This document shows positions 6,290 through 60,700 of a stretch of DNA of 64,000 nt, one piece after another. The stretch comes from Porphyra umbilicalis (lineage: Eukaryota; Rhodophyta; Bangiophyceae; Bangiales; Bangiaceae). The notes under the pieces were generated by a model, which worked only from the letters and a program-made list of their open reading frames with translations, was not told where the DNA came from and searched no databases. Position 1 is the first letter of the stretch. Every line of letters starts with the position of its first letter. Location of the stretch: NCBI GenBank assembly GCA_002049455.2, contig KV918815.1:124001-188000 (forward strand), in the 5' to 3' direction. Both the position numbers and the translations under genes were made by a program.

Positions 6290-8704
6290 AAACATTTTTT
6301 GTGCAACTGGCCAATGCCGAGCTTTACCTCACCATCACACCTGGCTACAACCAACTGAAAGACAACCGGCGTCCCCACTTGCGCCACCAGGGTGCCAGTC
6401 GAGCACCTCCGCACACGTTCCCTACCCCACCGCCGCCACATCGTCACCAACCCGTTTCGCACGGAGGGGTCACCCCCTCCCTCGCATTACCCCTTCACCG
6501 GCACCCCCTCCACCGTTGCAACCTGCTTTGGCGACAACGCTCTGGCGTCGACACCATCGGAGCCGTCTCCCAGCTGCCAGGCCCCTTCCACCGGGGTGTG
6601 CACTACACATGGCGCCGCGTCGAATTCCGACGCTCTCGCCGAGAGACAACAAACTGGAAGGGCTTTTTTCAGGCGACCGAGGCCGGCACGAGCGTGCCTC
6701 CAGGCCGCACCGAGCCGCGGCCGCCGAGGGTAGGCGTGGCAGGACTTCAAACCAGCTGCACCGACCATGCTGTATGATGGGTGCGAGGCGAGGCAGTGGC
6801 GTACTGCGGCCGCACCCGGGCGGCAGGGGGGCGGTGCCGGCCGTGGGGGCCAGTCGTCGGCATTGTCGCAATTGGGAGGCAGGTCGCAGCTCCAGATGGA
6901 GCGATGCTGCCTTTGTCGACAGAGCGACGACGCCCGCCACCCCCATGATTCCCCCCTCCACGTGAAGGCACATCAACGCCGCCGCTGCCACGTCCAGGTC
7001 GACGGGTAAGGTGAGGAGCCATGGTATGCTTCCTGCCAGCGCCAGCACCCCCCCCCCCCACTGGCTGCTCTCTCCAACGCGATTGGAAGGAGGAAAATTG
7101 TGCGCCCGCGCCGTCTGGGTGAGCATCGCACCCACCACAGCCGACAGCCGCCCGGCCGCCGCGCACACAACCGACCGCAGCCTCGCACACCCGCCGCCGC
7201 TGCGAGCACGACACCCCCCCCCCACAAACGATGGGGACCGTTCCGTGAACCGCCGGGCGAGCGACCAGTCCCGGAAGTTAACCCTGAATGAAACATTGGG
7301 AGAAGGGAAGGCGGAGGTAGCAAGGTTTTTGCAGGGCGGACGCGGTTGTCGCACGTTGCCGGCTCGGCCGACTCGACCATCGACACAGCCCATCCCGAAA
7401 TTCCGAACGACGAGCTTCCGCGGCCGTCGCGTGGCAGGCACCACGTGTAGCTGGAAGACGTGCAAGCAGGTAAGGAGAGCGAGGGCGGATGCCACCGGGG
7501 TCGCGGCGCAGCGCAGCGACCGAGTTGACGCGGGGGGGGGACTCAGAGAGATCCCTTAACAGAGCTGTCATTAAGAGTACTTGGGGAGGGCGCCAGGTGG
7601 TTGGGGGGCACCAGGGGGAGGGCGAGACGCTGGGGTTGGACGCGAGGGCGCCAGAGGTGTGCCGCCGGAAAAGCGCCGGCAGCGATAAGGGAAACTGGTC
7701 GCGAGGAGGCCCAGCGTCAGGTCGCGCAAGTGTGTCGAGGGACGGGTGAAGTACTTGAGTGCGGTCGACAGAATTCCCGCTTCTTTTTTAACGGTTTGAA
7801 TGGTCTGGTGGCCGCTTCCAGCCGGGCACTCAGCTCTTTTGAATGGGCGCCTGTCACTCGACTCTCGACAAACAGCACTGTCGACTAGACCGGCGCCGCC
7901 AGCCCGTGGGGTTGCCCAAGTCTTGACACCACTGGGGGGGGTGTTGATGGCTCTGCACAGCGAGCCGCACCATTGACTTTGTGAGTCCACGTGGGAGAGA
8001 CACTGCCCTCTGCGGACACCAATGGTGAGTTCTCCCCAAGCCCGCGGGGACTGTGGCGCGTCAGCAGTGGGGTGCATCAGACATGGGCGGGCTTGGTTGC
8101 GTCGCGGATGGCTATGTTGCTGGTACTGACCTGTCTGTCGTTTTCTGTGTTGATATCATGTTGCCAATGGCTGCGTGTCGAGCACTAAATGGACCTTCTT
8201 CCTTCCACACAGGCTTGAGCAGAACGTGACACCTGTGTGTCCTCGGACCGGCGCAGATAACAAGCGCTCAAGGTGGTGGGGTGGCGGAAGCAAGACATGG
8301 GCCTGAGAGAGAAGGCATACAAGCAGCAATTGTATGGCGCCGTCTGCTGGCATGCTGGCCATTCCAAGAAGTGTGACTGGTTTTTGGTCATCCCTGGCCA
8401 CGGAGTGGGTGTGCCCGTCGTTTTTTTTCCTCGGTCTATCACTGATGTCAGTGCACTTGGTGGTGGACCGTTTGTTGTATGTTTTGGTTGCGTGATCGAT
8501 TACTCGCCTCTGACACTGTGTACCCCCTTCTCCACCTCACATGCAGGACGTGCACCCGCCAGATGAAAGCAGGATACGTCCACAACACAGATGCATGAGA
8601 GCTGTCCCATAGGGCCGAGAGGAGCATGGCGGTCACCTGCTTGGGGAACACCTCCAGTTCATTAGCAAAGGGTCTTGGAGAAAAGGTCTGATGAGATGTG
8701 TTTA
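6290..8704. other. Long intergenic stretch, no gene supported
   Basis: Both strands carry open frames of up to about 340 codons, but their composition is that of random GC-rich DNA (Arg/Pro/Gly runs) and none has a coherent domain. Runs of C at 7050-7060 and G at 7525-7540 are the only notable tracts. From about 7,750 the GC content falls and no frame is convincing. Confidence 0.4.
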
Positions 8705-8878
8705 GAGCAAACCTAGCAATGATGGATTAACAAAACGTGTCTCTTTTATTGGTGCAACATGTCTATATTCGCTTATTGGTCCACGATCCACGCTCTCGTC
8801 AATGTAACGGTGACCTAAGGAACGAGATTCACCACAATGAATTTAGATAACTACATCTCGGTCCGATAGTCCGGGTGA

Positions 8879-9272
8879 TAGGGCTGTTAAAGCGGACAGG
8901 ACAATTGCGACGGTCGCGGACACGGACTGTCCGAGACGGTCAGTTTCGTCCGGTTCGTCTCATTGGGTGCATCTGAGATCCGCAACAGTCGTCCTTTGCC
9001 GTTTGATTGGTCCCTTACCCGCCCTCAGCCGTTGCTGTCAGCTTCGCGGACGATTTTTGTAATGGCTTGTGATCCGGGACTGAGCTGCTCTGTCAGCCAA
9101 CCCCTCCCACGGGCGTGCCGAGCGCTACGTAACGTGACGCCCGGAGGGTGGCCTACTGTTTCAGTATTACGGACAGTCCGGAATTGTCCGAATGGGAAAC
9201 GGACAGCCGTGAGGCCATAAAGACATTCTGGACAGTCTTTTTTTGTCCGTAATGTCCGATATAACAGCACTA
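8879..9272. mobile_element. hAT-type MITE, 394 bp, with 8-bp target duplication
   Basis: It is inserted in the Harbinger derivative. The target CCGGGTGA is present on both sides (8871-8878 and 9273-9280). The empty site is seen in the related element at 44,230-44,245, where the same sequence runs without interruption. The ends are TAGGGCTGTTAAAGCGGAC and, in reverse complement, TAGTGCTGTTATATCGGAC: a 19-bp imperfect inverted repeat starting TAG.G as in many hAT elements. Repeated GTCCG/CGGAC motifs near both ends look like transposase-binding subterminal repeats. There is no coding capacity. Confidence 0.88.
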
Positions 9273-10220
9273 CCGGGTGACACAATAGAGGGCGCATGTT
9301 CTATTCGAAGACAAAATACGGCACGCCCTCCCTATTCTGGAGAAGGACTATCCTGGACGTCCGCTCATTGGCTAGACGTCGAAATGACATGGGTCGAACA
9401 CGTGTCCCACGACGACCAAACTCGTTGACCAACGACCGCGAACCGATCGCGGGCCACTCCGACGAGGCCCGACATCCGGATCGCCGATTCCATCCTGTCT
9501 GAGGGGGGCGCCGGTGCAACTGCATCTACGACGTCTCTCAGAGCCCTACAAAACCGACTGGGTAGCGTAAACCGCTGTAGCAGAGACGCTGTGCTTCTCA
9601 AGACCAGAGGGGGCGACCCTCAGCTTGTCTCGTGCAAAGTTGCAGGTAGATCGCACAATGTACGCGAGAGTAGTAGACGGGTCAACATGGAAGAAAAAAC
9701 GGCCTCCACGGCAGTTTCCAGCCATGAAGTGCCCAGCCTTCTGCCAGCCCTCACCACCCGTGCAACACGTTTGGATGCACACAATCCCGTCCGTGATTCT
9801 TACATGTGTGATTGGCTGACAGGTCGTCATGGCCCTGCACGGTGGCAGCCTGTGGAGCTGCCATGTACCACTCAATCGGCTTTTACGACGACGATCTCCT
9901 ACTTTTTGCCATACTTGTCCTTCGTGTCTGCTTTGAGTCAGTCGATCGCTGCCTTTCGTCGGCCTTTCGAACGCAATCTGCAGCGGATCTCGTGGATCAC
10001 GCGTCGCGGGAGGCTCCGAGATTCTCTGGACTCTTTACTCCAAGGGATGGGCCACGAACCGCCCACCCACAAAGAGGACTATCGATGGAAAAGTAGCCCT
10101 GTCAGGAGTAACTCTATTGCGCATATCGCCCATTTTAGGAGCCTACAATAGGCGGCCTGTGAGGGGGCGCCACGTCGCAAGCCCAATTGAGATTTTAAGG
10201 ATAGTCCTTTGACATTGCTA

Positions 10221-10848
10221 TGGTGCGTGTCCCAAAAATGAGACATCGCGGTTTTTTCTTTTTTTCTCGGCCCACTGGCCTTCTGCAACGGTCCGATAAT
10301 GTAATGGGACCCACTCGGTCCCACTGTGCTTCCAGAACAGCCCCTGACAGTGTTAGCAGAGGCGGCACATCCTGACGTGTCATGGGGGAAAGTGTCATTC
10401 CTTGTAACTTCGACAGGTGACAATCACGCGGCCCAATCAAATGCACAGATACTAGAGCAGGCATGTGCTGACAATTTGTGCACGAAGAAAAGGGCAGCAC
10501 CTTACCAATAAAAACGTGAAAAAGACCCCCATGTAGCCCCCTGTGAGGAAAACACGATTTGGGACAGCCCTCATCGAAGCTCCAGTTAGCACATGAGCTT
10601 TGGCGTTGCAAACCTTTAACCCCAAGAACCTGAAAAAGACTGGCTCCAAGATCGGGGCTATCTGAGAGGTCCACAGAACAGGGCCCACAGGCGGGTATTA
10701 AGGAGTTGTCAGCCAAGCACGCGTCGGGAGAGGCTCTTTCCATGGAGGCCAGTCGAGAATTTTCTCGTACCCCACGCCGCCTGCGCCCGTGCAGTGATGT
10801 GTCAGTCCTTCGGAAAACGCGCATGTCTCATTTTTGGGACACGCACCA
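10221..10848. mobile_element. Tc1/mariner-type MITE, 628 bp, TA target
   Basis: A 26-bp perfect terminal inverted repeat (starting TGGTGCGTGTCCCAAAAATG) is flanked on both sides by TA (10219-10220 and 10849-10850). The insertion interrupts the right terminal repeat of the Harbinger derivative: joining CATTGCTA to GGTTTGCTC restores that repeat exactly. It is therefore younger than its host element. The interior has a 209-codon open frame on the minus strand with no transposase motifs, which I regard as chance. Confidence 0.87.
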
Positions 10849-31227: not shown

Positions 31228-31239
31228 GGCCACCGCCCC

Positions 31240-38064: not shown

Positions 38065-38152
38065 GACGGCGGGGAGGAAGACGGCCGGGAGGGGGACGGC
38101 GGGGAGGGGGACGGCGAAGAGGGGGACGGCGAAGAGGGGGACGGCGGGGAAG
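38065..38152. repeat. G-rich 15-bp minisatellite, copy 2
   Basis: About six units related to GACGGCGGGGAGGGG, shorter and more variable than the array at 20,370-20,515. Confidence 0.8.
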
Positions 38153-40286: not shown

Positions 40287-41121
40287 GTGTTAGAGCTGGA
40301 GTATTGAGATGCAGTCAACTACTCCGACAGGACGCGGCTACGTATCGAAAAAAGACCCCCACCACGCTCGTGCGCTGACACCCCTCCCCATATGCTTGAA
40401 ACAGGCTCGAACAGATGTGCCCTCAGACACAGGAAATGCCGATTTTGGGGACGCAGGCCTCGCCCGGAGCGGAGACTCGAACGGCGATTCATTGACAGAA
40501 GCAGGATCGAACGGGAACTGGTTTTAGCATGTACAGCCGAACCCCGGATCGCCCGCAGAGAAGCCGAACCCCGGATCGCCCGCAGAGAAGCCAGGCGCTA
40601 TCAGGGCGTGCGGCTATCCGGGCGTGCGCGCCCCCCACCTCCGCTACGCCCCCACCGCCTCCATATAGGGCGCTGCGCGCCTGATGTAGCGCGCACTTTT
40701 TGGGCGCCCCGCACGCTCTATGGGGGCGCCTGTGCAGTGTTTCCCGGGGCAAATCCTAGAGGCAGCCATGCTCCGCTCTGCGCGAAAAACGCAGTGTCAT
40801 CTCGGCACCCTCGGGGCCCAGCTCCGGCGCTTCGCGCCTACGCTCGGGCCCCGAGGGTGCCTCGCTGACACTGCGTTTTTCGCCGCAGTGCTCGCTACCA
40901 AATTTATATAGAAAGATGACCCGTGCATTCCGGGACATGTAGTTGATTTGGCGGCGTGCTGTGATTGGACACGAAGCCTTGGATCGATATTCATCGCATC
41001 AAACCCCCCTTTCCAAGGCTGGCATTATCTGAGTTGTTCGGCCGCTCGTCTCACTGGACGGAAGGCCTTTCATTCGGCCACTCGTCTCACCGGACGACTG
41101 CCGAGCGCTATTGTCGATGCG
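40287..41121. repeat. Single foldback arm interrupted by other DNA, with a 40-bp hairpin
   Basis: 40,538-40,620 and 40,845-41,037 match the arms of the foldback repeat at 20,659-21,403. Between them lies unrelated GC-rich DNA. At 40,778-40,890 two arms of about 40 bases, each holding CACCCTCGGGGCCC or its complement and an AAAAACGCAGTGTCA end, form an inverted repeat with a short loop. No gene was seen. Confidence 0.7.
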
Positions 41122-41736: not shown

Positions 41737-44068
41737 TTAGCCAACCCACATCACGTGCCAGGCCAGGCACGCAAGACATATCACATGAACGCCTTCAGAA
41801 AGTCCCGTGATTGCTCCCGTCTAATTGGTTAGTCGTGAATGAAATATGCCATGAGCTCACACGTATGACTGCAAGGAAACTTTAGTCATAAAACAGTCCA
41901 GATAGTAACGATGACAGACATTCTCATACATCGATTGTGGCATTTGTTAGATCCGAACACCCGTGTGAAAGGCTGAAATCGTCCCCTTCTCATCTGGAGG
42001 ACGGCGCAGGCCAAAACGCTGGCTCCAGAGGCTGCGTTCGTGACTGCCGTCACCGACCCACACGTGGCCGCCGCCGCGCAAATTCCATCCAGACAACTGG
42101 TCTGGCTCAATGCACTGCCATCGAGGGCTTCGGACTGCAGACCCCCCACCCCCACAGGAGGTCATCGCCAGTTGATTTCCCTCTCGCCAGCCCACCTGGC
42201 TCCAGTGGCTGCGATCGCAGATTTTAGACTGCTGGCCCCACCCGCTCATGGGTATTGCACACGCCGCTATTCCCGTCCCCCACCCACCTGGCTCAAATCG
42301 CTGCAATCGAAGGGTTTGTCAGCCATCCCCACCCCCCCGGGAGTGCCAGCTGGCGTGCATGTTTTGGCCGGCCCGTCCGTCTGGTCCCAGAAGCTGCGTT
42401 TGGCGGTTCGTGCCTCGGGCCCCTCACCGTCAGCAACGCGCCAAGCGCGTATGTCGCAATGGAAACATCGTCACGGATGGCAGAATCCCCATCCAAACGG
42501 GTTTGAGATGGGCCTTGGATGTTGTCTCGTCACTCTTTGGTTGTTGACGGATGGGCTTCTCCTGCTCATCCAAGCCCATCCATCAGAGTTTTCGATGGGA
42601 TACCGCTGGGCTTTCGATGGGCTTCGGATGCGCGTTTCCAGCCGATGGCGTGGTCCCCAGTTCCGCCCGGGAGTCCTTCGTGTCGAGGTGGCCCGCTCGA
42701 GAGACACCGTGTGATCCTCGGCAGGCTCGGCCGTTTCGTATTCAGAAACCCGATGTGAAACCGAAAGGCCATGTGATTGGCTTCCAGTCGCACGCGGTTT
42801 GGCCACACCCGCGCAGCAGTTTGGGCCAATCCAATTGGTCTGCTGGAAGTATAAGTATGCTGTTCCAAAGCATGCAAATTGCACGGGCATCGGTTGCAGC
42901 CGGCCGTCCTCACGACCGACTCCGAATCCGACGAGGTGAAGTCGCGACGGAAGCAGAGCTACAGCGATTGTGAATCGAGTGCTGTGCTGCTGGGGCGGTC
43001 GTCCTCGCGGGGGTCTGAGGCATGGGGCAGTATCACAACACACTGTGCAAGTGACGGAATTTTTGCACTCTCAAAGCGAATAGCGGAGCGCAGCGTGGAG
43101 CACGGCGTTTCGCGATGTCACCGACTCATCGCGATTTTCAAGGCCAATTCATTTTCTGTCGCTGACTGTCGGCGTGAACAAGACGACCGTCGGTCTGGTC
43201 GTGACGTCGACGGGGTGGACACAATGTACAAGATTTGAATCTCAAGTACTGAGAAATATGGGAGCTGTATCGCAAAAAAGAAAGGGTTGACCTCGTGCCG
43301 CGGACGCCGCTGAGCAGACGGACCAGATTGGAGCAGTACGGGGGCTACAGTTAGCAAGGGCCCGGCTCAAGAGTAGAAATGATGCTGGCCCAATGAGATG
43401 GCGTGCTTTTTCCGCGGAAGTGACGAGGGCCGGAAAGAAACGGCTGTGCTGCACAAGAGTGCGGTGACTTTTGACTGGCCTCGGTCGAGGAAGCCCATCC
43501 CAGTAACTCTTTGGATTGGGAATCGGGGGGCGCTCACAGACGTCAAAAATGCCCGTCCATCAGAGTTTTGGATACGGATAGGCTTTGTATGGGGGCGGAT
43601 GGGGATTCTGCCGGCCGTGACGATGCCGGGGTCCACGGCTGGCCCCACACCCTCTGAAACATGAGGGACCACGCTTTTTGCCACTTACCCACCTGGCGCA
43701 CTGGGTTGCGATTGAGGGTTCTTGACAGCTAAACACGCCTCCTCAATTGGGAGTTTGCTGGTATTGTCGTGCGACACAGGTAACTTTCGTGTGCTGCGTC
43801 CTTCATGTCCTCAACGAAATCCTAACGTAGCACTCCATAGAAGAGCGACGACATGTCCAGATCTGATTGGTGGATGCTGCACCTTTTCCCGGTTTCCTCT
43901 TCTGAGGCCTCTTCTGTTCGGAATACAGTTATTGAACCGGGAGCGTATTCAAAAATGAGGAGTCTAGCCTTTTGTCAGTGGCAGGCCTCGTCGTTCGGTG
44001 GGGCTTGCCGGCCACGCTCCCACTACAGCGCAGGTGCTGAGTGTCTGACAGCCGTCCCCGCCCCATGA
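41737..44068. other. Repeat-rich intergenic DNA with a candidate element at 42,466-43,625
   Basis: Inverted, imperfect sequences starting CATCGTCACGG and containing GGCAGAATCCCCATCC mark 42,466 and 43,625. Each is followed inwards by CCATCAGAGTTTT, so a non-autonomous element of about 1.16 kb is likely. A second motif family (CCACCTGGCTCCAG followed by GCTGCGAT) recurs at 42,190, 42,290 and 43,690 and again at 56,272. At 42,820-42,860 the pair CCAATCCAATTGG and TATAAGTATG resembles a promoter, but no gene follows clearly. Confidence 0.45.
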
Positions 44069-44947
44069 GAGCAAACCTAACAATGAAGGACTAACGAAAC
44101 GTGTCTCCATTATTGCGGCCACGTGTCTATATTCGCTTATTGGTCCACAAACCACGGTCTTGTCAATGTAACGGTGCCCTAACGAATATCAAACACGACA
44201 ATTAATTTATGTAAGTCCATCTCGCTCCGATAGTCCGGGCGACACAATAGGGGACGCATGTTCTAATCGAAGGCAAAATAGGCCACGCCCTCCCTATTCA
44301 GGACACAAGCACTATGCTAGACGCCCTCCCATTGGCTGATCGGGAGATGAAAAGGATCCAACACGTGTCCCAGTAACTGTGACTACGGCAAAAGTCGACC
44401 GTGAAAGAAACGCGCCCGCGACCCAGTGCCTGATGCGACACTTGACCGGACGTTTGACGGAACGCTGGACGGTCCGACAGAGACAGACCGGGCGCGAGTG
44501 GACACAACGTATGGGAGAGAAACAGACACTGGAGGGGGGGTCACATCAGCAGCCTTAGTCAGTAGGCCCGACACATGACACGCGATGCAAAGGAGCCGTC
44601 AGACGTGAAGTGGACTGGAAGACGCGTGCGCCTGTGACGTCGACAATATCTGTGACAGTCGGACGACTGGCACTCCCTCGCAACTGGAACTTGTGGTCCT
44701 AAATTTAGGATCAGTGGATGTCGGCGCGTGAATCGTCGTACGTTGAGCGAGTTGGACGAACAGACGACTTAGACAGCCGGATCCGCACTGTCAATCACCA
44801 CCCGTACAAAAAGCATGGTGCCTCGTGACTGACGGTCAAATGTCAATTCCATGTTCGTTGGTCAAATGTCCTTCCAATGTGACAGCCTCTGGTACGTACG
44901 GCATGTGGCGGAGGGTGGGCCATCGCGCCCGATCCTGACGGCAGAGG
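44069..44947. other. Left subterminal region of the Harbinger element
   Basis: The first 400 bases match the derivative at 8,705-9,470. It contains ATTGGTCCAC and CCATTGGCTGATCG, both with CCAAT-type cores, and is presumably where the transposase and its Myb partner bind and where the transposase promoter lies. No gene was seen. Confidence 0.5.
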
Positions 44948-47230
44948 ATGGTGCACCCAGATATCGCCCCGCCCCATCGGGTCCATGCGAGGGGTGGCGC
45001 CAGGCCCTGTTCGTTGCATGGCCAAACTGACGTATTGGGAGGGGTGCGCGTAGAAACGTCGCTCGACCCCAGCCCCAGCGCATTCTGGCGGGGGGGGGGG
45101 GGGACAACGTACCATCCTGCACAATCAGCCCCCGGCCATCGCTCGGTGGGTGGCGACACCGAATTGACAACGACGGTCGGCGCTATGCGCGGATCGCGAC
45201 CACCGTGCTCGCGACCACCGTGCTCGCGACCACCGTCTCCGAGACTGCCATCTCCGAGACCGCCGTGCACGCGACGGCCCTGGTTGCGCCTCGCACGAGC
45301 GCAGCGCTTTCGTGCAGCGGAGGGTGGTCCCATGGAGGGTGGATTCATGAGCATGAGCGGGTGGGAGGGGGACGAGGGTGGGAACGACGATGTCACCACA
45401 GCGGCAGTCGTCGCAGCTCACGTTGCTACCCTCCTGGAGTGGCGCCGCCGAGCGAGGTTGGCGGTGCGCGTGCAGCGTCCGCGGTATCGTGGCTCGACGC
45501 CCGGCCGAGTGCCCAACAAGCCACGCAACTTTGACCTCGGCCTGCACTGCATTCTGCGTAATTATTTTGGCGTGGATGGGCTGCCCCCGGTGTATAACAT
45601 GTTGGACTTTGAGCGTCGCTTTCGAGTTCCCATGGCCGTGTTCCAGAGAATCTATCATGCGATTAAGGACCGACCGTTTTGGGTACAGCGCGTGAACGCG
45701 ACGGGGCGGCCGCAAGCGCATCCTTTGCAAAAGCTTGTGGCTGTGTTCCGCGTCCTGGGGTATGGCGAGTCCTGTGATCGCGCGGACGAGTATGTGCGGC
45801 TGTCTAGTTTAACCATATCGCGCGCGGTGACGCTCTTCACGGAGTTCATGGTGGACGAGTTTAGCTCTCGCTACCTGCGACCGCCCACAAGGGCGGAAAT
45901 CGGTAACATCCTCGGCCGCAATGCTGAGCGCGGGTTACCGGGGTGTCTCGGGTCGCTTGACTGTTCTCACTGGCAGTGGTCCGCTTGCCCGAAGGGGCGC
46001 GCGGGTACCTACCAGGGCCGCAATGGGCAGCGGTCCATCGTGATTGAGGCGATCTGTGACGAGGACACCTGGATATACCACATTTTTGCGGGGAGTCCCG
46101 GGAGCCTGAATGACATTAACGTCCTGTACCAATCTCCCTTGTACATGGATGTTATCACTGGCAAATGGCCCCCGCGTGACTTTCCGTTCACTGTGAATGG
46201 TAATACTCGTACCTTGCTTTATTACCTAGTGGACGGCATCTATCCTCGCTTCGCGTTCTTCGTCGCCCCCTATCCCAACCCCCAAACTCGAGAGCAACGG
46301 ACTTTTAACCGCTTGCAAGAGGCGCTGCGCAAGGACGTGGAGCGCCTATTCGGGATCCTAACGGCCCGTTTCCACATTAAGCTGCACCTGTGCCGTTACT
46401 GGTCAGTACCGCGCATGGTTCTGACCACGCAGACAGTTGCCATCTTACACAACATGGTTGTGGAGGCACGCCGCGACGGGTTTGTGTCGCGGTCGCGTTC
46501 GTCGTGGTACGGGGGAGGCGGCGATGGGCCGGGGGCCGCCGGACCGGCGGGCAACGTCGGTCCGGCGGTGGGGACTGCGGCGGGGGGTGCGGGCGCCGGT
46601 GTTGGAGTGGGCGCTGGCGCAGGCGCGGGCGCGGGCGCCGCCGGTGCCGCCGCTGGAGAGGCGGCCGAACACGGCGCGGGAGGTGTCGCGCCCGGTGCCG
46701 GTGCTCCAGCGGCTGCCGGCGCAGGCGGGGACGCCCCCGGTGCCGGTGATGGAGCAGAGGCCGGCGCCGGCGCGGGCGCCGGCAGTGACGGAGTTGCTGG
46801 TGCCGGAGCCAGCGCGGGTGATGGGGCCGACGGCGCGGGCGATGCCGCGGCTGGAGACGGCGGTGGTGGTACGGGGGCCGGCGGCGGCGGGGGGGGGACC
46901 GGCGCGGCCGCGGGCGCGGCCGGTAGCGGCGGAGCTGGTCTGGGGGCGGGCAACGGTGGAGGGGCGGACGGCGCGGCAGCGGGCGACGGCGTTGAGGACG
47001 GTGGGGCCGACGGGGATGGTGCCCAAGGGTTGGATGATCTTGAGCATACCCCGGGCGTCCCACCCCCCCAGGTCGGAGCCGCTGCCGTGGCGCCAATGAG
47101 CGAGTTTATGCGCATCCTGATGGCGACGGGCGAGGCCAAGTCCCTGGCGGAGCACCAGGCGCTCCGCGATGACCTGTGCGCGCATGTTTTTGCGCAGCGA
47201 GGCGAGCTGCTGGAGCCGTACGTTGATTGA
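44948..47230 (+). CDS. PIF/Harbinger DDE transposase
   Basis: The core follows the plant-type Harbinger transposase family (DDE_Tnp_4/Plant_tran). A helical region (RRFRVPMAVFQRIYHAIKD, then LQKLVAVFRVLGYGESCDRA) precedes the catalytic domain. Asp338 lies in GSLDCSHW, the conserved GSLND motif has Asp389, Asp429 is in LVDGIYP, and Glu465 is in KDVERLFG. Asp429 and Glu465 are separated by 35 residues, the DD35E spacing. The enzyme should cut and rejoin the element ends in the nucleus. I show the first ATG, but residues 1-128 come from short CCACCGTGCTCGCGA-type repeats, so the ATG at 45332 (MEGGFMS) may be the true start. After the catalytic domain, about residues 515-700 are a Gly/Ala-rich linker, then a short helical tail ending LEPYVD. 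It is convergent with the Myb-like gene. Confidence 0.93.
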   Translation: MVHPDIAPPHRVHARGGARPCSLHGQTDVLGGVRVETSLDPSPSAFWRGGGGTTYHPAQSAPGHRSVGGDTELTTTVGAMRGSRPPCSRPPCSRPPSPRLPSPRPPCTRRPWLRLARAQRFRAAEGGPMEGGFMSMSGWEGDEGGNDDVTTAAVVAAHVATLLEWRRRARLAVRVQRPRYRGSTPGRVPNKPRNFDLGLHCILRNYFGVDGLPPVYNMLDFERRFRVPMAVFQRIYHAIKDRPFWVQRVNATGRPQAHPLQKLVAVFRVLGYGESCDRADEYVRLSSLTISRAVTLFTEFMVDEFSSRYLRPPTRAEIGNILGRNAERGLPGCLGSLDCSHWQWSACPKGRAGTYQGRNGQRSIVIEAICDEDTWIYHIFAGSPGSLNDINVLYQSPLYMDVITGKWPPRDFPFTVNGNTRTLLYYLVDGIYPRFAFFVAPYPNPQTREQRTFNRLQEALRKDVERLFGILTARFHIKLHLCRYWSVPRMVLTTQTVAILHNMVVEARRDGFVSRSRSSWYGGGGDGPGAAGPAGNVGPAVGTAAGGAGAGVGVGAGAGAGAGAAGAAAGEAAEHGAGGVAPGAGAPAAAGAGGDAPGAGDGAEAGAGAGAGSDGVAGAGASAGDGADGAGDAAAGDGGGGTGAGGGGGGTGAAAGAAGSGGAGLGAGNGGGADGAAAGDGVEDGGADGDGAQGLDDLEHTPGVPPPQVGAAAVAPMSEFMRILMATGEAKSLAEHQALRDDLCAHVFAQRGELLEPYVD

Positions 47231-47699
47231 GCGTTGCTCTTGAGGGTCGTTATTGCGTTTGTTGCATGACATGTTTCTTTCCGGGCATCACTTTTTTGAT
47301 GGTGCGATGACGTCTTGCTTTTTTGCGGTTGTGCTTTTGAGTCTTCTACAGTTTTACGGTATGTGTGCGGGTGGGCGCATTTTCAGTGGTATTGTTTTTA
47401 CGGGCGTCCCGGAAACCGTTGAGAATGCGTGTGTTCCCCTGCTCTTTTCTTGCGGTACTCGCGCGAGGCCCCAGGTCGCGGCCACAGTGGCCATCGTCAG
47501 GTGGCGGCCGCCGCCGACGTCTGGCTCATGTCGAGGGGCGGCCGCCAAGCTTGTTCTTGCGACCTTCCGGGGCGCGGCGGCCACGGTTGCCTGTGACGCG
47601 TGACCAGAGCGGCCGCCGCGCTTGTCGAGACGGGTGCGGCCGCCGCGCATGCGTTGCGCGGCAGCTGCGTTGGTGTGACACGGCAGCCGGCGCCATTGC
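47231..47699. other. 3' flank of the transposase gene
   Basis: A T-rich stretch (47,231-47,440), probably the 3' untranslated region, is followed by GC-rich DNA in which GCGGCCGCC motifs begin. No gene was seen. Confidence 0.4.
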
Positions 47700-48560
47700 T
47701 CGTGTTGGCGGCGGCCGCCGCGGTCCTCAAGGATGCTAGGTGGGGGCGGCTGGCGCCCGTGTCTTGCGTGTGGGACGCGCGCGGCGGCCGCCCGTGCGCT
47801 GGCGTGCATGGTGGCACGTTTGGGGCGGCGGCCGCCGCCGTCGTCAACATGACCAGGTGGGGGCAGCGGCGGCGGCCGCACGTGCCGCGTTGGCATGCGA
47901 CGGCAGCCGACAAATTTGGTGGTGTTGGCGGCGGCCGCCGCTGCAACATGGTGGCAAGACGTGGGCGGCGGCTGCCGCCGTCGTCAATATGACAAGGTGG
48001 GGGCAGCGGCGGCGGCCGCACGTGCCGCGCTGCCGTGCAAGGGCAGCCGCCACATTTGGTGGTGTTGGCGGCGGCCGCCGCTGCAACAAGGTGGCAACAC
48101 GTGGGAGGCGGCCGCCGCCGTCGTCCACATCACAAGGTGGGGGCATCGGCGGCGGCCGCACGTGCCGCGCTGCCGTGCAACAGCAGCCGCCACATTTGGT
48201 GGTGTTCGCGGCGGCCGCCGCTGCAACAAGGTGGCAACACGTGGGCGGCGGCCGCCGCCGTCGTCAACATCACAAGGTTGGGGCAGCGGCGGCGGCCGCA
48301 CGTGCCGCGCTGCCGCGCGACCGCAGCCGCCGCGGTTACTTGTCATTGCAGCGGCCGCCGCGGACCGCATGGTGGCACGTTTGGGGCGGCGGCCGCCGCC
48401 GTCGTCAACCTGCAAGGTTGGGGCAGCGGCGGCGGCCGCACGTGCCGCGCAGACGTGCGACAGCTGCCGCCGCGGTTGCTTGTCTTGGCGGCGGCCGCCG
48501 CGGACCGCATGGTGGCAAGCTTGGGGCGGCCGCCGCACATGTAATGGGTGGCACGGGTGC
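47700..48560. repeat. Tandem 140-bp repeat, about six units, NotI-palindrome rich
   Basis: The marker GGGGCAGCGGCGGCGGCCGC (with small changes) recurs at an exact 140-base step: 47,861, 48,001, 48,141, 48,281 and 48,421. A more diverged unit lies on either side. Each unit contains three or four GCGGCCGC or GGCGGCCGCC palindromes. The array lies between the two convergent genes of the Harbinger element and has no stop-free conserved frame that looks like protein. Confidence 0.9.
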
Positions 48561-49069
48561 GGCGGCCGCGTGTGCGCTGCGCGGCCACCGTGATTGCGAG
48601 GCGCGGCAGCCGCCACGCTGAGGGTGGCTGAGGGCGCTGTGTCCTCCCCCGTGGCACGGGTGCCCGACTTTGGCGGCTTGGCGCCTGCATGTGGGGCATC
48701 GGCACCGGCCAAGACTACGGTTGAGCGCTACTGACGGCATCTTGCCCACTTGCCGCACAAGAGCTGCGTCCTCCTCGCGGCGGTCGTTCACACTGGCCTC
48801 TTCGTGAGTGCACATCTGATAGGAAAAAAAAAACCCTGCCCAACGGGGAAAAAAAACCATCTACTACTATGAGAACACGGCTAGCGCAACTACGACGCCA
48901 ATCGCACTGACACACAAACGAAACATGCGAGACCAACACAGCAACAAAGCGCATACAAAGCATTCCCGTACAAGCATGCACCGCGAACGACACAGAAGTG
49001 ACGTCTCGCGGACCGAGAAAGAAAAAGAACAGAAGAAACAGACAAAGCAATAGGCAGTCAACCAGTGGC
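48561..49069. other. 3' flank of the Myb-like gene
   Basis: GC content falls at 48,820-49,060, with A-rich runs (AAAAAAAAACCC, GGGAAAAAAAACC). On the minus strand these are T-rich and are the likely 3' untranslated region of the Myb-like gene. No gene was seen. Confidence 0.4.
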
Positions 49070-51106
49070 TTACGAGCTCTTGTCCGCGTCGCTGATGCTC
49101 TCGTCCGAAGCACTGGAGTCGGACGAGGAGCGGCCTCCATACCGTGCAAACTTCTCGATGATGTCGGAATCAAACCCATCGAAGCCGCCGCCGTCAGACA
49201 GTGAGTCGTCAGACGAAGAAGCCGACGGCGGCGTCCTCTTGCGACGCTGCTGCGGGCGCCCAGACGGCGGGGGGGTCCGCGCGGGTCCGGTAGTAGAGGC
49301 GGCGGCAGCCGCCGGTACTGATAAGGCGGCCGCCGCCGCAGAGAGTACCGCGGAAGACGTAGAGGGACCCGCCGCGGCCGACCGTGCTGTCGCTTCCGTC
49401 AGGTCGACGGTCGTGGACAGCGGCGACGCCATGGTGGCCGTGGCGTTCTTCTTCTTGGTAGCCATTGCGCGGCGGCCGCGCAAAGTCAACGGCGTCTGCC
49501 TCGCGGCCGCCGACTTGCGAGAAGGGGCGGCGGCTGTCCGCGGCGGCCGAGCAGGAGTTGTGGCCGCGCCGGATGGCGCCGTCGGCCGCCGACCGCGCGA
49601 CGCAGCCGCGGAGGCGGCCGATGCGCCCGTGGCGCTCGTCGGCGGTTGTCCTGCCGAGCGACTAGCGGCAGCCGCTGGGGGAGCGGCCGTCCGCACTGAG
49701 GACGCAGGCGCGGCGGCCGCCGACGGAGCAGCGGCAGCCGCCGACACAACGGAAGCGGGCCTTGCCGATGATGCCGGCACCTTCCCTGCCTCGGCCGGAC
49801 CTGACCCGCCCGCCGATGAAGAGGTGGCGGCCGCCGGTGCCGTCCGTGATGCGGAGGCGGCCGCCGACGATGCATGCTCCGCGCTGTCCGAGCCGGGCGC
49901 CGTGGACGGCGGGGATGCCCCATCGGCGGCCGCCGGCGGCACGTCTCCGGACGTGCCGCGAGGCGGCCGCTTGGCTCGCACGAGAAAGATGTCGGCGTCT
50001 GTGTCGACAGCGATGACCTTCAGCTTGTCCTCCGTCGCTGCCTCCCCCGACGCCGAGACGTCGTCAACGGGAGACCCACCGGCCGCAGCACCCTCAGGGG
50101 GCGGAGGCGTACCGGCACTGCCGTCGGCGGCCGCCCCCGACGCCCCACCGGTGGCGGCCGACACCTCCGTTGACACCTTGATACCCTCTCGCTCCATCAT
50201 CTTCTTCGCCTGGTGTGCCCAGTACGCCGCCCCCATCGCCGTCTCCCGCATAAATGGCTGGCTAAAGGCCATCATCATTGTCCGCTGCTCGGTGGGGTCG
50301 CCGAGCTTCTCCACCGCGCTTGCTACTCGGCCGATGGTGCGGTCATCCGCGACGGCGTCGACGCGGGCACGCCTGGCCGCCTTGTTCCCAATGGGGCGTC
50401 CACCCCACGGCTCGTCATCGCTATGGTTGACGTCCACGACCGTCTGTCGGCCGCCCCCTTCGTCGCCGGCGGCCGCATTGGCCGCGGCCGCCGTCGCCGG
50501 GTCGCGGTCCGCTGCCTGCTGCTCGGCAGCCTCCCCACCGCCATCCGCGCCGGCGGCGGCCGCCGCCCTTGCCGCTGCTCGCACCTGCTTGTCCGCGGCC
50601 TTCTTCTGCAGGGACGCGAAGGAGGCGGCCGCCGACTTGAAGCGGTCCTGGTCCTTTAACTGCTCCCAATAGTGAGCCCAGGGGCACGACACTTGTTTCT
50701 TGCGTCGCTTAGTTGTCTTTCCCTTGGCGACATCGTCGGCGTGATCGCCGCGGATGCGGCCATAAATGTTCGTGCTGCAGTAGAGCCCCTCGGCACAGTT
50801 GACGAGGTCGGCGTGGGTCGCGATGCCCGTCGGCTTCGATAGGCGCGCCTGCACCATGCAGCTGGAAAACTCCATCACACCGGCCACGATTTTGGCCCAC
50901 TGCTTCCGCATCGCGTCAAATCCGCGCTGCTCCCTCCCCGCGGCGCCCGGCTCCCCGCGCAGCAGGTCCAGCCAGCCCTTGAGCACCCGCCGCCAAAACT
51001 CCTTCCCGGACTGGTCGGTCCCTCGAATGGGGTTGTTGGCCTCAATCAGCCACGCCTTGATAAGTGCATCATTCTCAGCCACGGTCCTCGACGGTCCGCG
51101 GCCCAT
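49070..51106 (-). CDS. Harbinger Myb/SANT-like partner protein
   Basis: The ATG at 51106 opens a 678-residue protein. Residues of about 8-85 have the Myb/SANT (trihelix-type) pattern: an N-terminal helix with Lys-Ala-Trp (ENDALIKAWLIEANNP), then GTDQSGKEFWRRVLKGW and MRKQWAKIVAGVMEFSSCM. A basic KTTKRRKKQ near 130 is a likely nuclear signal. Near 236-248, RPIGNKAARRAR matches the conserved Arg-Pro-x-Gly-x-Lys-Ala-Ala motif of plant Myb-like/NAM-associated proteins. A helical region (TMMMAFSQPFMRETAMGAAY) follows. The rest is Ala/Pro/Ser-rich, ending in an acidic Ser/Asp tail. In this superfamily such proteins bind element ends and bring the transposase to DNA. The coding DNA is itself rich in GCGGCCGCC, read mainly as Ala-Ala-Ala and Ala-Ala-Ser. 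Confidence 0.85.
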   Translation of the reverse strand: MGRGPSRTVAENDALIKAWLIEANNPIRGTDQSGKEFWRRVLKGWLDLLRGEPGAAGREQRGFDAMRKQWAKIVAGVMEFSSCMVQARLSKPTGIATHADLVNCAEGLYCSTNIYGRIRGDHADDVAKGKTTKRRKKQVSCPWAHYWEQLKDQDRFKSAAASFASLQKKAADKQVRAAARAAAAAGADGGGEAAEQQAADRDPATAAAANAAAGDEGGGRQTVVDVNHSDDEPWGGRPIGNKAARRARVDAVADDRTIGRVASAVEKLGDPTEQRTMMMAFSQPFMRETAMGAAYWAHQAKKMMEREGIKVSTEVSAATGGASGAAADGSAGTPPPPEGAAAGGSPVDDVSASGEAATEDKLKVIAVDTDADIFLVRAKRPPRGTSGDVPPAAADGASPPSTAPGSDSAEHASSAAASASRTAPAAATSSSAGGSGPAEAGKVPASSARPASVVSAAAAAPSAAAAPASSVRTAAPPAAAASRSAGQPPTSATGASAASAAASRGRRPTAPSGAATTPARPPRTAAAPSRKSAAARQTPLTLRGRRAMATKKKNATATMASPLSTTVDLTEATARSAAAGPSTSSAVLSAAAAALSVPAAAAASTTGPARTPPPSGRPQQRRKRTPPSASSSDDSLSDGGGFDGFDSDIIEKFARYGGRSSSDSSASDESISDADKSS

Positions 51107-51821
51107 GGCAGCTACTGCGACGGCCCGCCGGAACGGCGACGGCTCGCTGGTGGAAGGGGGGGCCGACCGCCGGTACGGCGCTTGGCGGAGGTCCGACCGA
51201 TGACAGCGGCGCCAGCCCCAGAGTCGCCTGCCGCCTGGTCACCGGCACCGGTGGCAGCGACAAAGCCGGCGGGAGTACGACTGCCGACGCCGGCAGCAGC
51301 GACAGACTCGGCGGCCGGCCGATTGCCGGCGGAATTGACCGCCGGCTGCCGAGCCGACGCACCGACAGACTGGCACGCAACAGCAGCACTGTTCGCGGCG
51401 GCCAGGTAGCGTCCTTGGATGTACGCCAAGGCCGCCGCCGCTCTTGCCGACGCTTGTGCTGCTTTCTTGGCGGCAATGCTTGCGTTTGTTGCCTCTTCTT
51501 TCGCGCTTGCTGCAGTGGCGACCGCCGCGCGGTACTTGGCCGACGCGGTCGCCGACTCGGCCGCCGCTGCAGTGGCGATAGCGGCCGCCTCGGCAGAGGC
51601 AGCAGCCGCCGCAGAGGCGGCCGCGACAGAGGCGCGATGCACGGCGGCGCGGTCCTCGGGGCTTCGAATCAGCACGAACCGCCGCTTGCGGACGGCAGGT
51701 TGCGCCCACTGCTGGCGGGGCGGCCGCTCGCCAAAGAGGGAAGGCGAAGGGATGGACGGCGGGACGCCGGCTTCGACCGCGCCACCCGCCACCACCCCGA
51801 CAGCCACGGCGGATGCGGCCG

Positions 51822-53129
51822 TTACGACAAGTCCCCGCCCCACGGCCGCGGGCTCGGCTGCCGCTCGGGCGGCGGCGGGTCCGCCTCCAACCTTCTGGGC
51901 GGGCTTGGTGGTCTTTGACCCGGCTGCGGGCCGCCCGACGTCCACCGCGGCGGGCTCGCCGGCCGACCTTCGGGCGGCGCGCCGCCCGTCCACCTCGGCA
52001 GGCTTGCTGGCGGCGCGCCGCCCGTCCACCTCGGAGGACTTGGCTGCGGAAAGTCGGGCGGCGCGCCGCCCGTCCACCTTTGAGGACTCGGCTGCCGAAA
52101 TTCGTGCGGCGCGCCGCCCGTCCACCTTGGAGGACTTGGGTACCGACGGTCCGGCGGCGCGCCGCCCGTCCACCTGGGAGGGCTTGGTGGTCGTCGATCC
52201 GGCGGCGCGCCGCCTGTACACCTCGGAGGGCTTCGCGGCCGGCCGTTCGGCGGCGCGCCGCTCGTCCACCTCGGCGAGCTTGCTCGCGGCGCGCCGCCCG
52301 TCCACCTGGGAGGGCTTGGTGGTCGTCGGTCGGGCGGCACGCCGCCCGTCCACCTCGGAGGACTTGGCTGCCGACGGTCCGGCGGCGCGCCGCCCGTCCA
52401 CCTCGGAGGACTTGGCTGCCGACGGTCCGGCGGCGCGCCGCCCGTACACCTCGAAGGGCTTAGCGGCCGGCGGTCCGGCGGCGCGCCGCTCGTCCACCTC
52501 GGGGGACTTGGCTGCCGACGGTCCGGCGGCGCGCCTCCCGTCCACCTCGGAGGGCTTGGTGGTCGTCGGTCGGGCGGCGCGCCGCCCGTCCACCTTGAAG
52601 GACTTGGCTGCCGACGGTCTGGCGGCGCGCCGCGCGTCCACCTTGGAGGGCTTGGTGGTCGTCGGTCGGGCGGCGCGCCGCCCGTCCACCTTGGAGGGCT
52701 TGGTGGTCGTCGGTCGGGCGGCGCGCCGCCCGTCCACCTTGGAGGGCTTGGTGGTCGTCGGTCGGGCGGCACGCCGCCCGTCCACCTTGGAGGACTTGGC
52801 TGCCGACGGTCTGGCGGCGCGCCGCGCGTCCACCTCGGAGGACTTGGCTGCCGACGGTCGGGCGGCGCGCCGCGCGTCCACCTCGGAGGACTTGGCTGCC
52901 GACGGTCGGGCGGCGCGCCGCCTGTGCACGGCGGTAGGGCGCTGCCGCGCAACACAGGACGCGGGGGAGCCGGAGCGCAGCAGCACTGGCACTGACAGTG
53001 CGCCAGATGGGGCGCAACAGCGTCCGTCCAGTCCCGCAGGAGCCTCCTATCCTCGTTGTTACGCAAGCGCTGCTGCGTCCGCTGCGTTCTCCGCCGCCTG
53101 CTGTCGTTCGGCCTCTTCTCCCACCGCAT
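51822..53129 (-). CDS. Possible third Harbinger-element ORF, Pro/Arg-rich 16-residue repeats
   Basis: The ATG at 53129 lies about 20 bases after a TATAAA on the same strand. It opens 435 residues: a basic N-terminus (MRWEKRPNDSRRRRTQRTQQ), a Cys-rich patch (CQCQCCCAP), then about 20 repeats close to PPDRRQPSPPRWTGGA, ending in a Pro-rich tail. The same DNA is open in another minus frame (52,992-51,112), where the repeat reads RRAARPSAAKSSEVDG and the end becomes an Ala-rich helical region (SAKEEATNASIAAKKAAQAS). That frame has no ATG at its beginning, so splicing or a frame change would be needed. Which frame is used cannot be settled here. Confidence 0.35.
   Translation of the reverse strand: MRWEKRPNDSRRRRTQRTQQRLRNNEDRRLLRDWTDAVAPHLAHCQCQCCCAPAPPRPVLRGSALPPCTGGAPPDRRQPSPPRWTRGAPPDRRQPSPPRWTRGAPPDRRQPSPPRWTGGVPPDRRPPSPPRWTGGAPPDRRPPSPPRWTGGAPPDRRPPSPPRWTRGAPPDRRQPSPSRWTGGAPPDRRPPSPPRWTGGAPPDRRQPSPPRWTSGAPPDRRPLSPSRCTGGAPPDRRQPSPPRWTGGAPPDRRQPSPPRWTGGVPPDRRPPSPPRWTGGAPRASSPRWTSGAPPNGRPRSPPRCTGGAPPDRRPPSPPRWTGGAPPDRRYPSPPRWTGGAPHEFRQPSPQRWTGGAPPDFPQPSPPRWTGGAPPASLPRWTGGAPPEGRPASPPRWTSGGPQPGQRPPSPPRRLEADPPPPERQPSPRPWGGDLS
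51960..52925. repeat. Tandem 48-bp repeat, about 20 units
   Basis: Units carry GGCGGCGCGCCGC, then CGTCCACCT and a variable middle (GGAGGACTTGGCTGCCGACG or GGAGGGCTTGGTGGTCGTCG). The GGCGCGCC (AscI) palindrome recurs at exact 48-base steps, for example 52,814 and 52,862. The period is a multiple of three and the unit has no stop in at least three frames, which keeps long open frames on both strands. Two main unit types alternate irregularly, suggesting local unit shuffling. Confidence 0.9.
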
Positions 53130-53147
53130 GGCGCCGGAAGCCGCCCC

Positions 53148-53153
53148 TTTATA
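53148..53153 (-). promoter_or_regulatory. TATA box candidate
   Basis: TATAAA on the minus strand lies 19 bases before the ATG at 53129, in CCTATAAAGGGGCGG. It is a rare A/T-rich string in a very GC-rich stretch. It could drive the minus-strand transcript that includes the repeat ORF and perhaps the Myb-like gene downstream. Confidence 0.4.
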
Positions 53154-53219
53154 GGAGAGGAGCACCCGACGGGGTCACCGGATGGTCACACACGCCACGC
53201 CCGGCAGCCCGCCACGGCA

Positions 53220-53560
53220 GCTGTGCACGAGGCACAGCTCACAGCAGCGACGAGCGGCCGCCGCCCACAGACACCGGCGGGCGGCCGCCGCCCACAGACA
53301 CCGACGGGCGGCCGCCGGCCACTCACCGATGGGCGGCCGCCGCACACACCACCGACGGGCAGGCGCCGCCCACACCCTCGACGGGCGGCCGCCGCCCACA
53401 CCACAACGGGCGGCCGCCGCACACACCACCGACGGGCAGGCGCCGCCCACACCTTCGACGGGCGGCCGCCGCCCACACCACAACGGGCGGCCGCCTCGCA
53501 CACCACCGACAGGCGGTCGCGGCCCACACAAACGACGGGCGGCAGCCGCCCCCACACCAA
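53220..53560. repeat. Clustered GGCGGCCGCC repeats with CCGCCCACAC spacers
   Basis: About 12 copies of GACGGGCGGCCGCCGCCCAC or a close variant occur at about 26-30-base spacing, some with GGCAGGCGCC in place of GGCGGCCGCC. A longer two-unit period is visible at 53,336-53,440. This is the second NotI-palindrome array of the Harbinger element, upstream of the Myb-side genes. Confidence 0.85.
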
Positions 53561-56028
53561 CGACGGCCGGCAGTCGCCCGAAAAGCGCGCGCGCGCCACG
53601 CGCTTCGACCCGTGCGTGGCACGGGCGGCCGCCGCCCAGCGCTTACCGGCGCGGCAGCCGCGCCCACAAAAGGAGAGGCCGGGGTGCGGAGGGGAGCAGC
53701 GACGCGGGCAAGGGGACGGGGGGACGGGGTGGGAGGGGATTAACCACAGTTCCCACAAAGCGCGCAAAAGAAACCGCGCGCCCGAGAGCATACCCGACAA
53801 CGGCACCACCACGTACCGGCGGCCGTTGGGGCCAGGGCCACCGCGAAAAAAAGCGCGCGCAAAGAAAGTGCGCGCACGACAGAGAGCCGCGTCGCAGACG
53901 TCGGCGGTAGCACAGGTCTCACGGAACCGTCCACCAGAGGCACTCGCACGACGTCGCGGAAGCAGGACGCCACTGCGCACCCCGATAACAACTAGCGCGC
54001 GCGCATGGGCACGCTGCGCCACGAGGGCCACTTCACACACCCCCTCCGCGACACAGAGTAGGGGGTGGCCCGCGCGGGGCCGCACCCAATCCTGAGCGGA
54101 GAGTGCCTGCCAGGACGTCGCCGTTCGCTGTCTGTGGCGCACGAGATCGGAGAGGGAAAAATGTTGGAGGGCGCGTGCTGAGGGGGGGCGGCGCTAAACG
54201 AGTCGCCGTCTCACGGGCCGAACGCTCGCGCCAGGCCCCCAGAGGCAGCCACCCGCGCCCCGCGCTCCCCTCGCAGCTCTTCGCCGACGATGCGTGGCGC
54301 GACGGCTGCCGAGGGCGCGTCGGTCTGAACAGCTCAAGCCGACACGGCCAACAGAGGGCAAGAAGCACGTGGACGCGCGTCCCATCCCCCAACCATATCA
54401 TACGTTGCGTGCGTGCTCGCGTGCGGCCGACGAGCCGTGGATGCGGCCGACGACCCGTGGATGGAACGTGTGCCACCTGAAAGGTTCAAAGAACGGGTCA
54501 CAGTCCTGGCGCAGAGAGAGTGCTGCCAGTGTCGCCCTGAATAGCCAATCAAACGGTACTCCGCTGGATGAACGAGTTCTCCAGAAATCGGGTTGCTGAC
54601 AAAGGCTCGTCTGCACCAGTAAACTGTCGCCGTTCTGGTCACTGTGCGGTTACCACAGCCATGCAATTTGGGCCAAGCTACCTCACCCTGATCGTGTCCA
54701 CAGCTTCCGTCTGACCTGTGAATAGTGACTACCGCCATCTGTCACTGACGGTCACCGCCAGCGCGGCCGCCTGAAGTGGCGCGGGCACCTGGCGAGTACC
54801 CCACCACGGGGCTGTGTTCCGCTGCAGGGGGGGATGGTGCATGCACTCATCCTCGCCGCAGCGGCACGCGGCGGGCCTGCGGGCCGCGTCCGGCGCGACA
54901 CACGCCGCGGGCGCCTCGGCCACGACCCGGCGCGCTGGCCCAACGCGAGGCAGCCGCCTGGCAAGACGCCACGCGGTCGATTCCTGTCCGCAAACTGTGT
55001 GCCTCTGATTTGCCTCGTCAGGTCGATCCGTCCCTGACGAGGGAGTCTTTCGGGACAGGCCCTGCCGGAGAGGATCACACAACGGGGGTCACCACCAAGG
55101 TTGCACCCAACCAGGAGGGGTCGTGCCGGGGATGCACCACGCTCGCACGCTGCCCTGGAGGGGGGGTAGCGCGGGAGCACCGCCACGCTCGCACTAGTTG
55201 CCGGTGCGGCCTGCCCGGCGCGTGGGGCGCAACGCATTGCTTGGCGCCTGTGCGCTTGCCTCTGCGCTGTCCTCGGGCTGCCGCCAAAGTGGAAACTGGC
55301 GGTCCACCCACTTTCCTCATGGTCACTCCTCAGTCGTCAGTCTCGAGCTTTTTCGGATGACTGGTAATCTCACGTGCATGGCGGCGACCCGCGATCAGCG
55401 ATGCCACTCCGAAAACCGTGGTCTGAGTCCTCCTTTCATCATTCACCAGGCACACGACACTCGTCCAGCGAGGATCACACGAGTGTTGGTCGAACATCAC
55501 CGCGATCACTGTCGACGTGGGGCTCTCATGCGTCACGTCTGAGGCCGCAAGAGCATACGTTGAGAACTCCTGTGTGTATCTCACGCTTGCATGTCACACG
55601 ACAGCACGATAGGCTCAAAATACTCCATCTCTGTGCGCCGTGGCAACATGGCGCGCCGCCATGTGGCACATAAACTACGGTTTGGACGACGATCTCGTAC
55701 TTTGCGTCCTACATGTGCATCGTGTCAGCTTCGTGTCAAACAATTGCTGCTTTTCCTCGATTTCTCATCCGCAATCTGCCGTGCATCTCGCGCATCTCGC
55801 TTCCATGACGGCTGCGATAATCCGCGGAAGGCTTACTCCAACGAAATGGGCCACGGATAACCCACCAACGACAGGGACTATCAGACGGAAAGTAGCCCGG
55901 TCCCAGGTAACTCGATAGCAGATATTGCCCTTTCTAGGCCCCTGCAATAGGCGGCCTCTGAGGGGCCGCCACGTCGCATGTCCAATTGAGATTTTAAGGA
56001 TAGTCCTGTTACATTGTTAGGTTTGCTC
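53561..56028. other. Right non-coding part of the Harbinger element
   Basis: GC-rich DNA to about 55,250, then lower GC content to the right terminus. The last few hundred bases match the derivative at 9,860-10,220. Open frames on both strands are not conserved in the derivative and look like chance. No gene was supported. Confidence 0.5.
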
Positions 56029-56613
56029 TGAGAGGCCCCGGGCCCCGTCGTGGACAGCGCCCCTCTCTCGCCGGCGCGCATTTTCGGTCCGGCCAGCAAG
56101 TCTGAGCCTGGCCTCAGGCAGTCCGATCGAGGGTTCCGCAGTGTCGGGCCTATCCCATCCACAGACGTACTCGTCAGTTGACAGAGGGCGATGCTCCAGC
56201 AGCTCTGATGGTGGGTGTCCACTGACCCCACACCCGCAGGGAGCCCGAAACAATGAATGTCCTTCGCGCCAGCCCACCTGGCTCCAGCGGCTGCGATGGC
56301 AGGATTTGGATTCCTGACGTCTGACCCTCAGAGTTCTGACGTCACTTCGGCGTGCCTCACACCTGTCGTCGTGGCGTCCACCGGCCTCTCCACCTTCTTC
56401 GCGCCGCGAGGAATCCTGGGGGTCCGGCTGGACAGCTTCGGCGGCAGGGGGCGCCGAGCGGCGGGAAGCGTGGAGGGCATCGCGGAGGGGCGTTCCGCAT
56501 TGCCACGGTCCTAGATCGACGCTGGGGGTGCGCGGATTGCGTCGTTTTCTGGTGAGACTGTGGCGAGTATTGGTGCCTCGTGAGATTGACGACGCCGAGA
56601 GAGGACGGCGCTT
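56029..56613. other. Flank between the Harbinger element and a broken transposase
   Basis: Near 56,268-56,300 the string GCCAGCCCACCTGGCTCCAG and GGCTGCGATGGCAGGATTT matches 42,185-42,225. This motif family therefore flanks the Harbinger element on both sides. No gene was seen. Confidence 0.4.
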
Positions 56614-59948: not shown

Positions 59949-60700
59949 TTCCAGCTCAACAATAGATCGGAGCTGTCCGTTAGAATCGTGTCGCCAAGGG
60001 CAGTTCGATGAGCGCAACGCGATGATTCCACCGAGAAGCGTTGACACACACACGCCCCGCCCAAATGGAAGCGATCATATCCAGCATACCTGCGCTTCCG
60101 TCACTAGATGTCCCGGAGGTGGCAGCCGGGGCTGTGGCCACCGCTGCTGCTGAGCCGCCGGCCATCGGACGTGGCCGGTGGGATATGCGCGCCCGTACTG
60201 TGAGGTGAGTGCTCGAAAGCGCGAAGAGGATGGGCGTCACGACGGTGGCAACGAACAGCAGCGGGCTGTCGTCAACGATGAGCGCCGTCCCAGCGCGGGG
60301 CGCCCTAAATTGGGACAGTTGACTGCCGTCCCAGCGCGGGGCACGTAAGGCTAGCGTTGAACTGAACCACCGGGGCGCGGCTTTTCGAAAGCAATCAACT
60401 CAATGTTTTTCGCCCACTCCGTCGCATCGCGGGCACCAAACGTGGTAGACATCTTTGAAACGTAAAGTGTATGATTCACTAAGACATGGTCACAACTACA
60501 TCTAACATTTGTGACGGGACGTAAGTACAGGTCGTTTTATGAGGCTGCACCCTGGATTGTCCAAGACAGGCATGCTTCAGGAAAGGTCGCCTCTTCTTGG
60601 ACTGTCCAGCTTTTGGCGCAAGGACAATAAGGCAGACGAATGTCAATTCGTCCGGTAGATGCTATCCGAACGAGAGACGGACGAAAAAGAGCGATCGTTC
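59949..60700. other. Upstream of the cysteine-rich gene, and junction with the distal duplicated block
   Basis: The minus strand at 60,060-60,170 reads MAGGSAAAVATAPAATSGTS, then GSAG and a donor-like GGTATGC. Near 59,990 there is a branch-like TTCTAAC and ACAG. An extra 5' exon is possible, but the phases I tried did not join. GCCGTCCCAGCGCGGGGC occurs twice (about 60,283 and 60,328). 60,620-60,700 matches the spacer of the foldback repeat in inverse orientation. Confidence 0.4.

Follow-up and report, generated by a model that had tools for sequence, protein, structure and literature searches.

A very probable complete PIF/Harbinger DNA transposon of 11.96 kb and a short relative in one stretch of Porphyra umbilicalis DNA

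PIF/Harbinger transposons usually insert at TTA targets. According to the available sections of Han et al. (PMC4482050), the target of these elements is TWA, autonomous members have an average size of ~4124 bp and the first base of the terminal inverted repeat (TIR) is usually A or G, whereas the NuwaII group described there has the target C|TNA|G, a TIR starting with GG and a gene pair encoding a DDE transposase and a Myb/SANT protein. For rice Ping/Pong and zebrafish Harbinger3 the accessible parts of two papers report a requirement for both proteins, of which ORF1 binds to the ends while the transposase does the cutting (PMC2836001, PMC10288884). The part of a Medicago study available to us (PMC2213677) lists 22 complete elements with lengths from 2,180 to 25,288 bp, of which some long members are composite or carry nested insertions, and one PIF/Harbinger family with 60-bp tandem arrays. 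The end motif G(N)5GTT was a search criterion in this one plant study and does not occur in the superfamily description in the available sections of PMC4482050. Furthermore, rice mPing tolerates TGA flanks in yeast, as stated in the accessible text of PMC4561436.

We analysed a window of 64,000 nucleotides of P. umbilicalis DNA (contig KV918815.1, positions 124,001 to 188,000). Its segment 44069-56028, 11,960 bp long, is very probably a complete DNA transposon of the PIF/Harbinger type (PHIS superfamily), which may be autonomous (Table 1). This assignment is based on the Plant_tran match and the DD35E arrangement of the transposase, the perfect ends with TGA outside them, a short copy flanked by TTA, the codon usage and the stop-free frames. 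Against it stand TGA instead of TWA, a TIR without the plant motif G(N)5GTT, the lost right tip of the short copy, an ORF1 without a Myb/SANT match, the second rank of the true frame by codon usage in both tails and the lack of any confirmed transposase relative in viral_contigs and genome_contigs. The original prediction of a complete element with both genes is well supported.

Table 1. Positions in the window of the features of the 11.96-kb element and of its short relative.
Feature	Position	Strand	Evidence or remark
Left target-site duplication TGA	44066..44068		direct sequence reading
Left terminal inverted repeat GAGCAAACCTAACAATG	44069..44085	+	17/17 vs right end; 16/17 in short copy
Left terminal region common to short copy	44069..44372	+	identity 83% in the first 174 bp, 79-81% in the following ~140 columns
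Transposase, stop-to-stop frame, 763 aa	44939..47230	+	Plant_tran 1.2e-58, DDE_Tnp_4 4.2e-12
Array of 5.1 tandem 140-bp units, between 3' ends of both genes	47823..48536		
ORF1-like second gene, 678 aa from Met 51106	49070..51106	-	RPIGNKAA; PF14303 E=0.0012-0.079, below cut-off
Array of 19.4 tandem 48-bp units	52009..52929		
Tandem array, 26/51/77-bp units	53240..53579		
Right terminal region	55634..56028	+	55634-56019 common to short copy, 74% over 387 columns
Right terminal inverted repeat	56012..56028	-	exact reverse complement of GAGCAAACCTAACAATG
Right target-site duplication TGA	56029..56031		direct sequence reading
Left flank of short copy, TTA	8702..8704		sequence reading
Second, short family copy	8705..10221 (right end approximate)	+	end regions in same order as full element
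hAT-like insert in short copy, 394 bp	8879..9272		inverted ends TAGGGCTGTT.., 17/20 matching; 8-bp duplication CCGGGTGA

The predicted perfect inverted ends and the identical TGA triplets outside both of them were confirmed by reading the sequence. The TIR is 17 bp long and has G as its first base; the inverted match extends to 18 bp if the outer A, which is part of the TGA duplication, is counted. As a control for chance, the window was shuffled 100 times with dinucleotides preserved within 2-kb blocks, and pairs within 15 kb were counted. A chance inverted repeat flanking two unrelated genes draws some support from the mean of 0.35 perfect 17-bp inverted pairs per shuffled window and from the real window itself, which is full of GC-rich repeats and contains 1097 such pairs, 16 of them with equal flanks when no filter for complexity is applied. 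However, requiring identical 3-bp flanks lowers the shuffled number to 0.01 (one pair, in 1 of the 100 shuffles), and the short copy is another place where these two end regions occur together, ~1.5 kb apart. Because this short copy exists, the chance explanation is in effect refuted, and its probability is practically negligible. A separate scan for pairs of at least 14 bp with equal flanks and a sequence-complexity filter left three pairs in the window. One is the 11.96-kb element, another belongs to an unrelated insertion (12471-13850), and the third, at 27102-32816, lies within dispersed repeats.

The insertion at 12471-13850 is a separate transposon-like sequence of 1,380 bp whose inverted ends match perfectly over 18 bp (CCCTATGGGAACAGAACC) and which has a CAG duplication, and its empty site is found in a paralogous repeat copy near 29582, which is clean and has one CAG. 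The CAG fits the CWG target given for NuwaI in the available sections of PMC4482050; the ends start with CCC, not GGG. Large interrupted repeat blocks of 91-97% identity pair 11866-20661 with 28981-38299 and 21530-24835 with 60694-64000; they are partly very GC-rich, and their scanned frames reach no Pfam cut-off. One repeat block contains ~2.3 kb (~33240-35544) that its counterpart lacks at 17572-17578; this sequence has the ends CACGCCTA/TAGGCGTG, and no clean duplication was discerned. Tandem repeats of 27 bp (CGAACCCCGGATCGCCCGCAGAGAAGC) occur at 20657-21403, 38424-38590 and 40535-40592, and they are adjoined by a 300-bp inverted pair (20659-20958 / 21104-21403) with 96% complementarity and 145 bp in between.

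The short copy shares the left 304 bp of the element, in two pieces, and the right 386 bp at 74-83% identity. In the self-comparison of the window, 8704-8878 matches 44068-44242 (82.9%) and 9836-10220 matches 55634-56019 (73.6%); the second left piece, 9273-9409, matches 44235-44372 with 80.6% over 139 columns. At its left end the flanking TTA is itself preceded by T, and at its right end the outermost 8-9 TIR bases are unrecognisable, so that a target triplet can be read on the left side only. Nothing in the full element significantly matches the centre at 9410-9835, and no traces of the transposase or of the second gene were found in the short copy. Between its two left pieces lies the 394-bp insert, a non-autonomous hAT-like element; at the corresponding site of the full element a similar octamer, CCGGGCGA, occurs once. 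Since the short copy pairs the same end regions ~1.5 kb apart, the two are parts of a single mobile family. The search for paired ends 1-2 kb apart that had been proposed at the outset has one positive case in the window, from 8705 to ~10221, with the right TIR tip lost. Scanning the window with profiles of the two ends gave no further copy, and no burst of short copies was seen there. Like Tourist-like MITEs (e.g., mPing), the short copy has the same end regions as the full element and no genes, whereas its length of ~1.5 kb including the insert, its unmatched centre and its lost right tip set it apart from them.

The expected DD35E transposase is borne out by the sequence of the plus-strand gene. 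The Plant_tran match (Pfam) covers residues 311-513 and positions 2-203 of the 205 of the model, DDE_Tnp_4 matches as well, and 35 residues lie between the acidic residues D432 and E468, which follow D341; the DDE catalytic region can therefore be aligned with that of the PIF/Harbinger family. A further acidic residue, D392, is located in an NDI motif, and we take D341, D392 (NDI), D432 and E468 to be the conserved motifs of this family. Met codons are present in the frame at 44948, 45185, 45332 and later positions, and the tail of the protein is Gly/Ala-rich. Protein pattern scans for relatives of the transposase, two in viral_contigs and one in genome_contigs, gave 5, 17 and 59 matches, none of which was confirmed by tblastn, and a 26-bp pattern of the 3' end that is exact in both copies had no match in either collection. 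A PHROGs search gave nothing, and Rfam had no match in the window at the gathering threshold.

The second gene, with a full open frame of 49070-51238 on the minus strand, is convergent to the transposase gene, its 3' end facing that of the transposase. The stretch RPIGNKAA, an instance of the RPxGxKAA stretch that we assume to be typical of the PIF/Harbinger second gene, lies inside a match to the NAM-associated model (PF14303). This sole relevant profile match of the gene is weak and always below the curated cut-off, the E value being 0.079 when the whole frame is queried, 0.0057 with 313 aa and 0.0012 with 178 aa. Myb/SANT models did not match the N-terminal 135 aa. Of the predicted convergent Myb/SANT-like gene, the convergent frame and RPIGNKAA thus hold, but the name Myb/SANT is matched by no profile and is to be understood as an inference from resemblance and the gene pairing. 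PDB sequence searches yielded nothing useful either for the transposase (best E 0.55) or for the N-terminus of ORF1 (best E 0.15), and structure models built from single sequences were too poor for use, with a pLDDT of 37.7 for the transposase core and 44.7 for ORF1. By analogy with rice Ping/Pong and zebrafish Harbinger3, the ORF1-like protein would bind the ends of the element and bring in the DDE transposase, which would excise the element and join it into a 3-bp TNA target, the triplet being duplicated.

Both frames are uninterrupted and the ends of the element are perfect. Codon usage learned from the conserved part of one gene gave the highest score of the six frames to the true frame of the other, in both directions; within the low-complexity tails, the true frame of each gene came only second of six. 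How long such frames stay open under neutrality was simulated with 2000 trials per setting, with substitutions but without indels, starting from Met 45332 for the transposase and Met 51106 for ORF1. Stop-free frames remained in 36.5% and 34.2% of the trials, respectively, at 2% divergence, in 8.7% and 7.4% at 5% divergence, and in 1.4% and 0.8% at 10% divergence. As about one third of the trials stay open at 2% divergence, intact frames alone are no proof of selection. The suggestion that the element is a recently active master copy is partly supported. It agrees with the uninterrupted frames and the perfect ends, but no near-identical copy was seen, and the only other copy found, the one in this window, differs by 17-26% over the shared ends.

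The element had also been called unusual in its TGA target and its large size, which is fair in comparison with TWA and the ~4.1-kb average in the available sections of PMC4482050, but both lie within the variation described in the accessible parts of PMC2213677 and PMC4561436. Given the Medicago sizes and the tolerance of mPing for TGA, neither TGA nor 12 kb needs a new class. The duplication of the full element is 3 bp long and reads TGA; the short copy has TTA on its left side. Membership in the NuwaII group, with its C|TNA|G target and the same gene pair, is very unlikely. TGA fits TNA, the base after the duplication is G, and NuwaII carries a DDE gene and a Myb/SANT gene (available sections of PMC4482050) where the element has its DDE gene and second gene. 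However, the element reads A|TGA|G, so that the base before the duplication is A and not C, its TIR starts with GA and not GG, and the left flank of the short copy is TTA preceded by T. Within PIF/Harbinger, the Plant_tran match would place the element closest to the Pong-like branch (rice Ping/Pong, Medicago MtMaster/MtPH). It resembles this branch in its Plant_tran-type DDE transposase, a separate RPxGxKAA gene, the 3-bp duplication and a short TIR starting with G. It differs in the long low-complexity tails on both proteins, in TGA, in the absence of G(N)5GTT from the TIR (GAGCAAACC has ACC at positions 7-9) and in 11.96 kb against the ~4.1-kb average (PMC4482050, available sections). Large size and internal tandem arrays are shared with Medicago members, as far as the accessible part of PMC2213677 describes them.

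It is possible, although we find it rather doubtful, that an older and smaller element was swollen by nested insertions and array growth and is no longer mobile, which would be compatible with PIF/Harbinger membership. The tandem arrays within the element, three of them long and several shorter, point in this direction, as does its length of 11.96 kb where the average is ~4.1 kb, and larger Ping/Pong constructs are less mobile in yeast according to the available part of PMC10288884. On the other hand, both frames are open with perfect ends, direct repeats of at least 150 bp within the element are tandem arrays only in the self-comparison, and a scan of the interior found no perfect inverted ends of at least 11 bp with a 4-10 bp duplication, a scan that is blind to imperfect ends of the hAT-like insert type and whose range does not include 2-bp duplications.

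That the extra length of the PIF/Harbinger element encodes a third, repeat-containing protein is improbable, and the 48-bp array is a weak lead for it. Its units are 48 or 36 bp long, both multiples of three, and among 20 units of 48 bp the variation is three-periodic, one phase accounting for 71 of 118 differences, or for 55 of 83 if the two diverged units at the edges are excluded. Of 55 distinct variants, 27 are silent in one plus frame, compared with 17.9 expected (p=0.004), and 18 of 32 compared with 10.9 without the edge units (p=0.005); one minus frame has a weaker excess, 23 of 55 compared with 15.9 (p=0.019) and 14 of 32 without the edge units (p=0.07), all p values being uncorrected for the six frames. 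The frames with this excess are not the longest open frames of the array, and codon scoring favours frames on both strands and thus does not discriminate. The window contains 122 stop-to-stop frames of at least 180 aa, 31 inside the element and 91 outside. Ten frames inside, one of them a 313-aa fragment of ORF1, were compared with Pfam for a third gene and none reached the cut-off; the same holds for 20 of the 91 outside, with weak matches to TPR_16 (0.012), UPF0731 (0.03) and Bcl-2 (0.052).

The analysis adds a PIF/Harbinger element that is well delimited and apparently intact, and that comes from a genome rich in GC. It is a known kind of element, and the full element and its short relative in one window represent the usual pairing of a coding with a non-coding element. 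The general view of PIF/Harbinger transposons is unchanged by it, and the element is useful for annotation as a reference copy.
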